Source: Bacteroidaceae bacterium (lineage in GTDB: Bacteria; Bacteroidota; Bacteroidia; Bacteroidales; Bacteroidaceae). Taken from it: a DNA stretch of 64,000 nucleotides. The stretch lies in contig JAKSLL010000006.1 in the NCBI GenBank assembly GCA_024401215.1, positions 26,608-90,607 on the forward strand, given 5' to 3'. The notes under the pieces are model-generated. The model had not been told where the DNA came from and ran no database searches. It worked only from the letters and a program-made list of their open reading frames with translations. Positions within the stretch are counted from its first letter, which is position 1. Each line of letters opens with the position of its first letter. A program made the position numbers and the translations under genes. Below are positions 23,446 to 27,566 of this stretch, piece by piece.

Positions 23446-23509
23446 GTCGCAGTAAGCTAAATTGTCGTTATTGTGGCAGGATAAAATTGATAAAAAGATT
23501 CTAACATAT

Positions 23510-25312
23510 ATGAAACATCAGTTACGTAGTGCAGTATGCACAGAAGGTCGCCGTATGGCAGGTGCCCGTGCTCTTTGGGTAGCCAACGGTATGAAGCGTG
23601 AGCAGTTTGGCAAGCCAATCATTGCTATTGTAAATTCATTCACTCAGTTTGTGCCAGGTCACACTCATCTTCACGAAATCGGTCAGATTGTGAAGGCTGA
23701 GATAGAAAAGCTCGGTTGCTATGCAGCAGAGTTTAACACAATTGCTGTGGATGACGGTATTGCAATGGGACACGACGGTATGCTTTACTCTCTCCCTTCA
23801 CGCGACATCATAGCGGACTCTGTTGAGTATATGGTTAACGCACACAAGGCAGACGCTATGGTGTGCATCTCTAACTGCGACAAGGTTACTCCTGGTATGC
23901 TCATGGCTGCTATGCGCCTCAATATCCCTGCTGTGTTTGTAAGCGGTGGCCCTATGGAGGCAGGTAAGGTGAACGGCGAGAATGCCGACCTTATCACAGC
24001 AATGATCAAGGGTGGTGACCCAACAGTCAGCGACGAGGAACTTGCTGTTGTTGAGCATAGTGCATGCCCTGGTTGTGGTGCATGCTCTGGTATGTTTACA
24101 GCAAACTCTATGAACTCTCTTACTGAGGCTCTTGGCTTCTCTCTTCCAGGCAATGGTTCAATCCTTGCAACTCACGTTAACCGTGTTCAGCTCTTCAAGG
24201 ATGCTGCAAAGATTATCGTGAAGAATGCCATGGCTTACTATGAAGATGGCGATGAGTCAGTTCTTCCTCGTTCAATAGCTACACGTCAGGCATTCCTCAA
24301 CGCAATGACTCTTGACATTGCTATGGGTGCTTCAACAAATACTGTTCTTCACCTCCTCGCTGTTGCTCAGGAGGGTGGTGTTGACTTCAAGATGACAGAC
24401 ATCGACCAGCTTTCACGCAAGGTGCCATTCCTCTGCAAGCTCGCTCCAAACTGGCAGAAATACTCTATCCAGGAGGAGAACCGTGCAGGTGGTATCCTTG
24501 GCATCATGGGTGAGCTTGCTAAGGGCGACCTTCTCGACCTCACTTGCAAGCGTGTGAACGGCTCAACTCTTGGTGAAGATATCAAGAAGTACAGCATCAC
24601 AGGTGATACTATCGACCCAGAGGCTGACCGCATCTACCACTCAGCTCCTGCTGGCAAGTTCTCAACTAAGATGGGTTCACAGGACACACGTTGGGAGTCA
24701 CTTGACACAGACCGTGAGAATGGATGTATTCGTGACATCGAGCATGCTTACACAAAGGACGGCGGTATGGCTGTTCTCTTTGGTAACATTGCACAGGATG
24801 GCTGTGTGGTGAAGACTGCTGGTGTTGCTCCTGAGCTTTGGCATTTTGAAGGTCCTGCAGTATGCTTCGACTCACAGGAAGACGCTTGCGAGGGCATCCT
24901 CGGAGGCAAGGTGAAGAAGGGCGACTGCGTAGTCATCACTCACGAAGGTCCTAAGGGTGGTCCTGGTATGCAGGAGATGCTTTACCCTACATCTTATATA
25001 AAGAGTATGCACATGGGTAAGGAATGTGCCCTCATCACAGACGGACGTTTCTCTGGTGGTACTTCGGGTCTTTCTATCGGTCACATCTCTCCAGAGGCAG
25101 CATCTGGCGGCAATATCGGCAAGATCAAGGATGGCGACATTATCGTTATCGATATCCCTTCACGTTCAATCAATGTGAAGCTTTCTGACGAGGAACTTGC
25201 AGCTCGTCCACAGCAGCCACTCAAGCGCAACCGTGTTGTGTCAAAGGCTCTTCGTGCTTATGCTCAGAGTGTGGCAAGTGCAGATAAGGGTGGCGTGAGG
25301 ATTATTGATTGA
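23510..25312 (+). CDS. ilvD: Dihydroxy-acid dehydratase
   Basis: IlvD dehydrates 2,3-dihydroxy-isovalerate and -methylvalerate to the 2-keto acids of valine and isoleucine synthesis, using an iron-sulfur cluster. The 600-aa protein shows [10 protein letters not shown] with a cluster Cys, the [18 protein letters not shown] cluster motif (about 185-203), the [11 protein letters not shown] region and the C-terminal [15 protein letters not shown]. The ATG at 23510 matches the family start; the frame open from 23462 is leader. Its TGA overlaps the first base of the inverted repeat that separates it from ilvB. Confidence 0.97.
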
Positions 25313-25344
25313 TGACCCCCTCCCAGCCTCCCCGAGGGGAGGAG
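25312..25344 (+). repeat. Left 33-bp inverted repeat of the DUF559 unit
   Basis: The repeat starts ATGACCCCCTCCCAGCC and contains the palindrome CCTCCCCGAGGGGAGG. Its reverse complement recurs at 25853-25885 with a single mismatch. The first base is the last base of the ilvD stop codon. Confidence 0.85.
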
Positions 25345-25361
25345 AAGAAAGACACCATAGG

Positions 25362-25394
25362 TTGGATTGTACGATAACTTGGATTGTACGATAA
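25362..25394 (+). repeat. 16-bp tandem direct repeat
   Basis: TTGGATTGTACGATAA occurs twice (25362-25377 and 25379-25394) with one base between, just before the DUF559 pseudogene ATG. Confidence 0.8.
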
Positions 25395-25408
25395 ATTAGT
25401 ATCCAAAG

Positions 25409-25783
25409 ATGGTAAACAAAAGCTACGTTACTGCTGATCCCGCTTTGTATTCCTTGCTCCACGAGTGGGCGAGAGAGAACAAAAAACATCAAACAGAAGC
25501 AGAATGTGTCCTTTGGGAGCATTTATGAGCGAAACGTCTGGGCAAGAAATTTAACAGACAGCATGTAATTGAGCAGTATATTCTAGATTTTGTGTGTCTT
25601 GAAGAAAAGCTTGTTATTGAGGTTGATGGTGGTTATCATTCTCAACCACAGCAAAAGATGTTAGACAAACAGCGTTCAGAGCATCTCGAAGCGATGGGAT
25701 TTACAGTCATTCGCTTTGACAATGACAAGATAATGGAAGAAATAGATAAGGTTTTAAAAGAAATTTGTAGATATATTTTCTGA
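25409..25783 (+). pseudogene. DUF559 endonuclease-like protein, one in-frame stop
   Basis: A single frame of 125 codons encodes a DUF559 protein (Vsr/restriction-endonuclease-like fold). Codon 40 is TGA (25526-25528), where relatives have Arg in the motif LW-x-x-LR-x-x-x-LG. Before the stop, residues include TEAECVLWEHL. After it the frame continues AKRLGKKFNRQHVIEQYILDF, with catalytic-type LVIEVDGGYH and a C-terminus VIRFDNDKIMEEID. Everything except the stop is intact, so inactivation looks recent (CGA to TGA would suffice). Function in DNA transactions is inferred from the fold. It is enclosed by inverted repeats at the ilvD/ilvB junction. Confidence 0.85.
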
Positions 25784-25784
25784 A

Positions 25785-27566
25785 ATGAATAAAGATAGTA
25801 ATATGACACCCGATAACACTGTATCAGCGTCTATTGATAATGTGTCTTCCAACTCCTCCCCTCGGGGAGGCCGGGAGGGGGTCATTACCGGTGCAGAAGC
25901 ACTGATGCGCGCATTGGAGCATGAAGGTGTGGATGTCCTCTTCGGATATCCTGGTGGTTCCATCATGCCTACATACGATGCGCTCTACGATCATAAGCAG
26001 TCTCTCAATCATATTCTTGTTCGTCACGAACAGGGTGCAGTACACGCTGCTCAGGGCTATGCTCGTGTCAGCGGAAAGGTGGGTTGTGCCATTGTTACAA
26101 GTGGTCCTGGTGCAACAAATACAATCACAGGTATTGCTGACGCTATGATAGACTCAACACCTATGGTTGTCATTTGCGGTCAGGTGGGTGTTGCTATGCT
26201 TGGCACAGATGCTTTCCAGGAGGTTGATGTCGTTGGCGTTACACAGCCTATATCAAAGTGGAGCTACCAGATTCGTCGTGCGGAGGATGTTGCTTGGGCT
26301 GTGGCTCGTGCTTTCTATGTGGCAAAGAGTGGCCGTCCGGGTCCTGTTGTTCTTGACTTTGCTAAGAATGCTCAGACAGGAATGGTGGATTTTGAACCAG
26401 CAAAGGTGGATTTCATCCGCAGCTATAACCCATATCCAAATGTAAAGCAGGATGTTGTTGAGGCTGCAGCTAAGATGATTAACAACAGCGTCAAGCCATT
26501 TGCTTTGCTTGGTCAAGGTGTGGAACTTGCTGGCGCTCGTGAAGAGGTTCAGGCTTTCTTGGAAAAGGCACAGATTCCTTTTGGCACTACATTCCTCGGA
26601 CTTAGTGATATGCCTTCTGACCATAGTCTCAACAAGGGTATTCTTGGAATGCATGGAAATTTGGGACCAAACGTGATGACAAACAAGTGCGACCTCTTGA
26701 TTGCTATCGGTATGCGTTTTGATGACCGTGTGACAGGTAACCTTGCAACTTATGCAAAGCAGGCAAAGATTATACATTTTGATATTGATGCTTCTGAGTT
26801 CAACAAGAACGTGAAGATTGACCTTGCTGTACATGGCGACTGCAAAGCAACAATTCCTGCTGTTACTGCGCTTCTTGATGAGGCAAAGCATGATGCATGG
26901 ATTGAAGGATTTAAGCCTTACGAGGAGAAAGAGTTTAATAAGGTGATAGATAAGGCAATCAATCCTGCTGATGGTCCTCTCCTTATGGGAGAGGTTGTTC
27001 GCAAGGTGAGTGAAGCAGCTAACAATGAGGCAATCATGGTTACTGATGTCGGTCAGAATCAGCTCTTTGCGTGTCGTTACTTTAAGTTCACAAAGCCACG
27101 CTCTGTAGTGACATCTGGTGGACTTGGCACTATGGGCTTCGGACTTCCTGCAGGCATTGGTGCTACCTTTGGCGCTCCTGACCGTACTGTGTGCGTGTTC
27201 TGTGGCGACGGTGGTCTGCAGATGACAATTCAGGAACTTGGAACAATAATGGAGCAGGGTGCGCCTGTCAAGATAATACTCTTGAACAATAACTTCCTCG
27301 GTAATGTTCGTCAGTGGCAGGAGATGTTCTTCAGCCATCGCTATTCTTTCACTCCGATGACAAATCCTGATTATGAGCTTATTGCCAAAGGATATGGAAT
27401 ACCATCAAAGACAGTCATTGAGCGCAAGGATCTTGATGCCGCTATTCAGGAGATGCTCAGCACACCTGGACCTTATCTCTTGCAATGCGCAATCAAGGAA
27501 GAAGACAATGTGCTTCCAATGACACCTCCAGGTGCAAACATCGACGAAATGCTTCTTGAAGTATGA
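25785..27566 (+). CDS. ilvB: Acetolactate synthase, large catalytic subunit
   Basis: This TPP-dependent enzyme condenses pyruvate to acetolactate or, with 2-ketobutyrate, to acetohydroxybutyrate. The 593-aa protein has the pyrimidine-binding domain (ALEHEGVDVLFGYPGGS, catalytic Glu in HEQGAVHAAQGYAR), a central FAD domain, and the pyrophosphate domain with the Mg/TPP motif GDGGLQMTIQELGTI...NNN. The family core begins at residue ~34 (ITGAEALMRAL). The first 33 residues are an atypical extension partly encoded by the right arm of the DUF559 unit. The stop overlaps ATGA of a short upstream extension to ilvN. Confidence 0.96.
   Translation: MNKDSNMTPDNTVSASIDNVSSNSSPRGGREGVITGAEALMRALEHEGVDVLFGYPGGSIMPTYDALYDHKQSLNHILVRHEQGAVHAAQGYARVSGKVGCAIVTSGPGATNTITGIADAMIDSTPMVVICGQVGVAMLGTDAFQEVDVVGVTQPISKWSYQIRRAEDVAWAVARAFYVAKSGRPGPVVLDFAKNAQTGMVDFEPAKVDFIRSYNPYPNVKQDVVEAAAKMINNSVKPFALLGQGVELAGAREEVQAFLEKAQIPFGTTFLGLSDMPSDHSLNKGILGMHGNLGPNVMTNKCDLLIAIGMRFDDRVTGNLATYAKQAKIIHFDIDASEFNKNVKIDLAVHGDCKATIPAVTALLDEAKHDAWIEGFKPYEEKEFNKVIDKAINPADGPLLMGEVVRKVSEAANNEAIMVTDVGQNQLFACRYFKFTKPRSVVTSGGLGTMGFGLPAGIGATFGAPDRTVCVFCGDGGLQMTIQELGTIMEQGAPVKIILLNNNFLGNVRQWQEMFFSHRYSFTPMTNPDYELIAKGYGIPSKTVIERKDLDAAIQEMLSTPGPYLLQCAIKEEDNVLPMTPPGANIDEMLLEV
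25853..25885 (-). repeat. Right 33-bp inverted repeat, inside ilvB
   Basis: This is the reverse complement of 25312-25344 with one mismatch. In the ilvB frame it encodes residues about 23-34 (SSPRGGREGV), so a mobile-element end forms part of the annotated protein. Confidence 0.85.

Follow-up and report, generated by a model that had tools for sequence, protein, structure and literature searches.

The stretch of DNA analysed here (the window) comprises 64,000 nucleotides of a Bacteroidaceae bacterium (contig JAKSLL010000006.1), and between its ilvD (dihydroxyacid dehydratase) and ilvB (acetolactate synthase) genes lies a unit of 574 bp in which a single DUF559 nuclease gene is enclosed by palindromic arms (Table 1). 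A first-pass annotation had proposed this gene and its 33-bp inverted repeats as a possible mobile unit, and the repeats were confirmed: the stretches 25312-25344 and 25853-25885 are, but for a single mismatch over 33 positions, reverse complements of each other, the match can be extended to 44 nt at 91% identity (25312-25355 and 25842-25885), and the palindrome noted inside each arm is perfect over 16 bp in both. The arm score of the unit was 32, the highest among 98 window positions of identical geometry (runner-up 12), whereas the best of 200 Markov-shuffled flank pairs scored 13. The description of the interior as only a tandem repeat and one DUF559 gene stood in part: both are present, but the repeat is 17 nt long and near-tandem (82%), and the gene, a single reading frame, is broken by a TGA, with the ilvB frame opening between the arms as well. 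With this stop codon the copy is probably inactive; dead as it probably is, it supplies the start of the ilvB frame, which opens at 25785, one base on from the DUF559 stop, and crosses the right arm. Neither the broken gene nor the translational fusions, the in-frame insertions in proteins and the spread beyond Bacteroidota described below had been part of the first-pass annotation.

Against the DUF559 profile (PF04480) the gene scores 118.5 bits (curated cut-off 20.6), and the six residues that are invariant in 29 aligned relatives (E15, D43, E54, D56, G57 and H60) are kept in the window copy despite the stop. The same genome, an assembly of 234 contigs that is 93.6% complete with 7% contamination, holds three DUF559 genes (at ilvB, leuC and uxuA), every one with GC-rich flanking repeats.

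Among relatives, the ilvD-ilvB junction was compared at loci from 30 of 41 matching genomes, the own genome included. In 29/29 other species of the genus examined the junction carries no unit and the genes are 12-162 bp apart, so the site is empty there and, in the window, the unit replaces a short native ilvB start; that all related strains might share the unit, which the first-pass annotation had envisaged, is thus not the case. At the leuC junction, 23/30 were judged by eye to lack a unit or an arm-like remnant. Many of the relatives' ilvD-ilvB gaps (L080-L084, L086, L088, L093-L095, L099-L101) contain short CTAG-containing, AACTAGA-like repeats, some of them arrayed. At the leuC junction (L109, L111, L116, L130), gene-less arm-like or decayed stretches were seen where others have a full unit or nothing.

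Table 1. Position of the DUF559 unit and its neighbours in the window.
Feature	Position	Strand	Remark
ilvD (dihydroxyacid dehydratase)	23462..25312	+	upstream; stop codon meets left arm; mechanical open reading frame start, true start may be internal
Left arm (terminal inverted repeat)	25312..25355	.	begins within ilvD stop codon
Perfect 16-bp palindrome of left arm	25327..25342	.	read off sequence
Near-tandem repeat, two 17-nt copies, 82% alike	25354..25387	+	
DUF559 (PD-(D/E)XK, Vsr/EDxHD-like) nuclease gene	25409..25783	+	118.5 bits; in-frame TGA 25526-25528
ilvB (acetolactate synthase) frame	25785..27566	+	33-residue leader from unit and arm; relatives have a short start
Right arm	25842..25885	.	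translated within ilvB frame
Perfect 16-bp palindrome of right arm	25855..25870	.	read off sequence

Matched arms around DUF559 genes

A DUF559 match was found in 25/45 genomes of the genus and a full-length stand-alone gene in 22/45. Among the 35 full-length copies of the genus (fragments L046-L048 and the weak or long-frame matches L032-L034 are omitted), 28 have left and right flanks that match at a score of at least 16, compared with 51/600 mismatched pairs from different loci and 1/123 shifted windows; a random distribution of arms with respect to DUF559 genes, the other outcome foreseen in the first-pass annotation, does not agree with these counts. As the 35 units are spread over 15 common loci, the counts are not independent; by locus, 13/15 reach this score. 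The seven units below it (L021, L022, L026, L028, L038, L039, L043) score 12-14. Arm orientation is mostly inverted, the direct-repeat score being higher for L009, L013, L017 and L024 and marginally so for L026.

The pairing recurs beyond the genus, in four phyla altogether. For named Bacteroidota loci, where the best 80 of 577 hits to one peptide pattern were taken and 79 scored (L337 was too short), 27/34 stand-alone genes reach 16 versus 37/400 mismatched pairs and 2/126 shifted windows, and 23/45 do so among fused rows (frame of at least 300 aa, some being run-ons into the next gene). Outside Bacteroidota, 14/18 loci score at least 20, compared with 13/306 mismatched and 0/54 shuffled pairs. 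These 18 loci, from Cyanobacteria, Deinococcota and Proteobacteria, correspond to 18 of the 39 plasmid records, and some of them are closely related (four Deinococcus, two Picosynechococcus and two from one Sphingomonas strain); three lie between operon genes, namely sufB/sufC, paaD/paaZ and two transhydrogenase genes. On Sinorhizobium meliloti pSymB (L373, 1-2103) a DUF559 gene sits within inverted repeats scoring 102, the core of which presumably resembles the rhizobial intergenic mosaic elements. At three cyanobacterial plasmid loci (L370, L375, L376) the DUF559 gene adjoins the bacteriophage exclusion (BREX) gene pglX (one) or DUF1156 genes (two), so that some members of the family may lie in a defence neighbourhood. 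An origin from phages was rejected, 3/50,697 phage records containing a relative, and so was one from plasmids (39/72,556 records, with 14 of the 30 listed exceeding 1 Mb).

The arms are C-rich/G-rich, many with GACCC- or GCCCC-like ends, and their sequence differs strongly among units, while the left and right arm of one unit match. Arm similarity correlates with nuclease similarity over all 561 pairs (rho 0.375, p 0.001 by permutation) and over the 514 pairs at different loci (rho 0.229, p 0.001 by permutation); these correlations omit L022 and still contain shared genome ancestry. Two units at the tsaC site (L030, L031) have arms like those of L044, which occupies another locus and is their closest relative in the tree. 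The main hairpin pattern of the genus occurs within 350 nt of 19/35 DUF559 units and of 0/25 matches, several of them weak or partial, to Y1, the transposase family of the REP-associated tyrosine transposases (RAYTs; REP, repetitive extragenic palindromic). The better Y1 (RAYT-like) genes of the genus (L220-L223, L225, L226, L228, L240, L241) have inverted or direct palindromic repeats of their own, of a different kind. An unpaired GTAG or CGTC tag at one palindrome end marks the REP superfamilies of these names. A core motif of the CATTGCGAG type was found in 7 of the loci examined, one of them (L263) within 300 nt of a DUF559 gene, and the 7 showed no pattern.

Gene-less arms and placement at host genes

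Arms also occur without the gene. The hairpin CTCCCC-N-GGGGAG is found 26 times in the own genome (4 of these within the ilvB and leuC units) versus 0 times for the reversed control, and 0-94 times per genome across the 45 genomes of the genus (control 0-5). The median count is 40.5 in the 22 genomes with a full-length stand-alone DUF559 gene and 4 in the 23 without (p 1e-4, kinship ignored). Close pairs of hairpins were present in 9/52 stretches from three neighbour species; their spacing is 59-246 nt and their orientation, to the extent that the ends show it, inverted, a form akin to that of REPINs (REP doublets forming hairpins). For one doublet (L173) the neighbouring gene differs among species, and the junctions were therefore read directly rather than by gene order. 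Downstream of leuD, one and the same site is empty in some species (L355, L364, L365), holds a single arm in others (L353, L354) and a doublet in another (L361), the frame being open in all. Some members of the genus have a LeuD that continues in frame into a membrane-protein-like stretch, and these arms and the doublet lie where the two are fused (L353-L355, L361, L364, L365).

In the genus, 33/35 units have the stop of a long upstream frame between -19 and +28 nt from the left arm, compared with 12/525 random positions outside units, and 18/35 have it no more than 4 nt away, versus 1/525; counted by locus, the figures are 14/15 and 10/15. At the other end, 20/35 units have a frame that opens ahead of the right arm and crosses it into the downstream gene, and in 16 of these 20 the start lies at -4 to +1 of the DUF559 stop. 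The ten downstream genes examined with Pfam belong to the aconitase family (LeuC), semialdehyde dehydrogenase (ArgC-like), carbamoyl-phosphate synthase, an MnmA-like tRNA-modifying enzyme, Sua5/YrdC, UxuA, nucleotidyl transferase, acetolactate synthase, Clp ATPase and a phosphoglucomutase-type enzyme.

Elsewhere, DUF559 lies in frame inside proteins: at two sites of leucyl-tRNA synthetase (LeuRS), in RecG, UvrD, methylmalonyl-CoA mutase, a CCA-adding-type enzyme, MazG and GH31, and at the end of GcpE. At the editing-domain site of LeuRS, 21 occupied rows carry a stop-free insert of 426-726 nt, always a multiple of 3, compared with 30 nt in four empty rows, although this openness is partly selected, DUF559 or a long frame having been the criterion for choosing a row. 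A less biased view at the level of the order gave 18/145 LeuRS frames of at least 1000 aa and 121/145 of 850-1000 aa, part of the long ones having been checked for DUF559. Degenerate DUF559 domains occur at the editing-domain site without an intact ExDG-H motif in two of the 21 rows (L342, L344) and at the second LeuRS site (L343, L346, L347), as if they were domesticated or neutral relics, and one LeuRS (L336) contains three more solitary arms in frame. The rows of the LeuRS site do not form one clade and require at least 3 gains or losses, and the tsaC site is occupied by different unit lineages, a single origin being recovered in 0% of bootstrap trees. Units at the joints between genes, like those nested in frame within proteins, thus leave the host frame open.

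Nuclease fold, proposed mode of spread and alternatives

A model of the L010 protein, built from the 29-row alignment (mean pLDDT, the predicted local distance difference test, 85.9), was compared with solved structures by Foldseek. It matched 3hrl, a solved endonuclease-like protein, and the homing endonuclease I-Bth0305I (3r3p, E 2.3e-4), the only homing enzyme among three matches at E of 0.001 or below, which a sequence profile also reaches (E 4.4e-7). The Vsr-like fold ascribed to DUF559 in the first-pass annotation was recovered as a weak match to Escherichia coli Vsr (1vsr, E 0.015). AlphaFold performed poorly on a whole LeuRS with its nested DUF559 (mean pLDDT 62.2; pTM, the predicted template modelling score, 0.36), and we took from this model only a likeness in secondary structure between the nested stretch and the stand-alone model. 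In Caulobacter, a DUF559 protein (VsrA) is needed for the DNA-damage response upon loss of a methyltransferase, according to PMC12907096, and the family therefore probably cuts DNA in cells.

With moderate confidence, we read the 574-bp unit as one copy, now broken, of a selfish element consisting of a single DUF559 nuclease gene between matched palindromic arms. As judged from sequence comparison, many loci carry gene and arms together as a matched pair, given loci are free of them in relatives, the arms appear without the gene either singly or as inverted doublets, and placement in frame and decay can both be recognised. Mobilisation itself is an inference from these states. The nuclease may recognise its own arm type, and perhaps a conserved target sequence as well, and a cut there would trigger repair by which the armed segment is copied or relocated elsewhere, in the fashion of homing endonucleases. 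It might also act in trans on gene-less pairs of arms and move them, the role that RAYTs are believed to play for REPINs, and the doublets favour such movement. Translatable arms and a start codon that the unit often supplies beside its own stop would allow insertion at an important gene to be tolerated, with the element then being read as part of that gene; the nuclease may decay afterwards while the reading frame stays.

Several observations weigh against this reading. No movement has been observed. Many units stand at orthologous loci, as expected of old vertical insertions; no target-site duplication, for which no systematic search was made, was evident by eye in the list of junctions; and the native start regions of ilvB and leuC are replaced rather than duplicated. 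Hairpins number 22-50 in 9/23 genomes without a full-length stand-alone DUF559 gene, these being metagenome-assembled genomes, some of them incomplete. Arms are missing from 4/18 loci outside Bacteroidota, and at the order level only 17/29 loci reach a score of 16, with fused ones included and no control. When dispersed repeats were compared with unit arms (ten units in four genomes, hairpins collected by one pattern, 14 of them from the own genome), a clear match within the same genome was obtained for L035 and L044 only: for the window arms, dispersed copies of the own genome score 19 and those of a neighbour species 20; for L010, copies of its own genome score 12 and those of a neighbour genome 44; L016, L025 and L037 have no good match among dispersed copies, and L008 was also negative. 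We know of no strand-transfer chemistry in DUF559, so that the protein could not transpose alone. Finally, VsrA has been proposed to act in mismatch repair of 5-methylcytosine (5mC) as the partner of a cytosine methyltransferase (PMC12907096).

Four other explanations were weighed. (i) The arms could form the ends of a single-stranded fork intermediate that DUF559 nicks and host or unknown factors transfer, as in RAYT-like hairpin transposition, the unit then being a REPtron with another enzyme. The presence of units at many unrelated loci, the REPIN-like doublets and the strong single-strand folding of one 130-nt doublet (z -6.38, with a fair value of -2.26 for the L010 arm stretch) fit this explanation, which we nevertheless consider unlikely: DUF559 stands alone between the window arms, without a Y1/HUH domain; these arms as single strands fold no better than shuffles (z -0.84 and 0.23); the recurrent host sites in tsaC and LeuRS speak for target-site specificity; and other palindromes accompany the better matches to the RAYT family in the genus. 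Given the fold of the nuclease, the recurrence of the same host-gene sites and the absence of a strand-transfer domain, we favour homing-like copying over this route.

(ii) DUF559 could be an ordinary repair or defence nuclease around which an independent palindromic repeat has recombined by chance. The mismatch-repair role proposed for VsrA, the hairpins in genomes without DUF559 and the cyanobacterial copies beside DUF1156 or pglX genes are in favour of such hitch-hiking. It is rendered rather improbable by arms that match within a unit, differ between units and track the nuclease lineage, by a hairpin pattern that accompanies DUF559 units and none of the Y1 matches, by armed DUF559 genes nested inside unrelated enzymes, and by the recurrence of the pairing in four phyla.

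(iii) The units could be ancient insertions, inherited, repeatedly lost and no longer mobile in the genus. The broken window copy and the locus-specific clades formed by units at orthologous loci in bootstrap trees (argC 100%, carB 98%, mnmA 92%) agree with this, but the ilvB unit is found in one of the 30 species examined, different lineages occupy tsaC, and 32/35 full-length copies of the genus have no stop inside the domain, which makes it a very doubtful account. (iv) That the hairpins and the upstream frame govern translation of ilvB as an attenuator, as their position in an operon directly 5' of the gene and the abutting DUF559 stop and ilvB-frame start might suggest, is scarcely credible, given the 29/29 relatives with no such unit at the site, the similar units inside coding sequence, a terminator scan that found none, and an Rfam search of 25000-26300 whose one match had 20 bits versus a gathering score of 45.

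Relation to known palindromic elements

The element shares features with several known systems. In PMC3733652, the REP/REPIN-RAYT system is described as short palindromes, solitary or as inverted dimers, that are dispersed and occur inside genes too, with the RAYT gene flanked by cognate repeats and more repeats present where the gene is. The comparison with REP-RAYT made in the first-pass annotation holds for the gene-less copies and inverted doublets, and its proviso of a different protein holds as well: the enzyme here is a DUF559 PD-(D/E)XK nuclease, theirs a Y1/HUH transposase. The C-rich/G-rich arms with their GACCC- or GCCCC-type ends, and gene units placed at joints or in frame, are further differences. 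Rickettsia palindromic elements (RPEs), akin to the units described here, are palindromes translated in frame within unrelated metabolic genes; in the part of PMC10969869 available, they are inserts of ~150 bp for which no enzyme is named, unlike the in-frame nuclease gene between arms found here. An in-frame palindrome in a host frame together with empty orthologues, a criterion for RPE-like elements, was seen at the leuD-downstream and LeuRS sites. With EDxHD/Vsr-fold homing endonucleases of the I-Bth0305I type, the units have in common the fold and a conserved gene site that is occupied in some cases, empty in others and decayed in others again; in contrast to these, neither introns nor inteins were identified at the units, palindromic arms enclose the gene, and gene-less arms are dispersed. 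The DDE, HUH or recombinase enzymes of classical insertion sequences and miniature inverted-repeat transposable elements are absent from the unit, and what it has in common with Caulobacter VsrA is the DUF559 domain, read there as belonging to mismatch repair (PMC12907096). Taken together, the element works like REP-RAYT and RPEs, yet it is not REP-RAYT by the tests made, and the gene sets it apart from RPEs.

A broader proposal, for and against which we see the case as evenly balanced, is that a class of palindromic repeats found across bacteria, and distinct from the REPs driven by RAYTs, has DUF559 as the enzyme dedicated to its spread. Such an element would be autonomous, could nest in frame in an essential protein with its translated arms as linkers, and would throw off gene-less copies resembling REPs and RPEs. 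According to PMC3733652, the CGTC superfamily, one of two large superfamilies of tagged REPs, apparently has no dedicated transposase, and the proposal, if true, would provide a candidate for the mover of those palindromic repeats that are said to be without one. The nuclease-palindrome pair of four phyla would turn this into a question open to assay, namely whether DUF559 cuts its own arm type or the empty site. It would also suggest how selfish DNA might survive without splicing, at a gene joint, by providing the next gene's start codon, or through translation inside an enzyme such as LeuRS, and would offer a working hypothesis both for genes whose annotation goes no further than 'endonuclease domain-containing protein' and for unusual N-terminal leaders or inserts of annotated enzymes. 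A specialist might call the armed DUF559 element a new kind. Among the 14 open-licence PMC papers containing 'DUF559', no title or beginning of an abstract concerns flanking repeats, and a term search of the RepRanger paper (PMC12306157) found none of RAYT, nuclease, Vsr and Prevotella.

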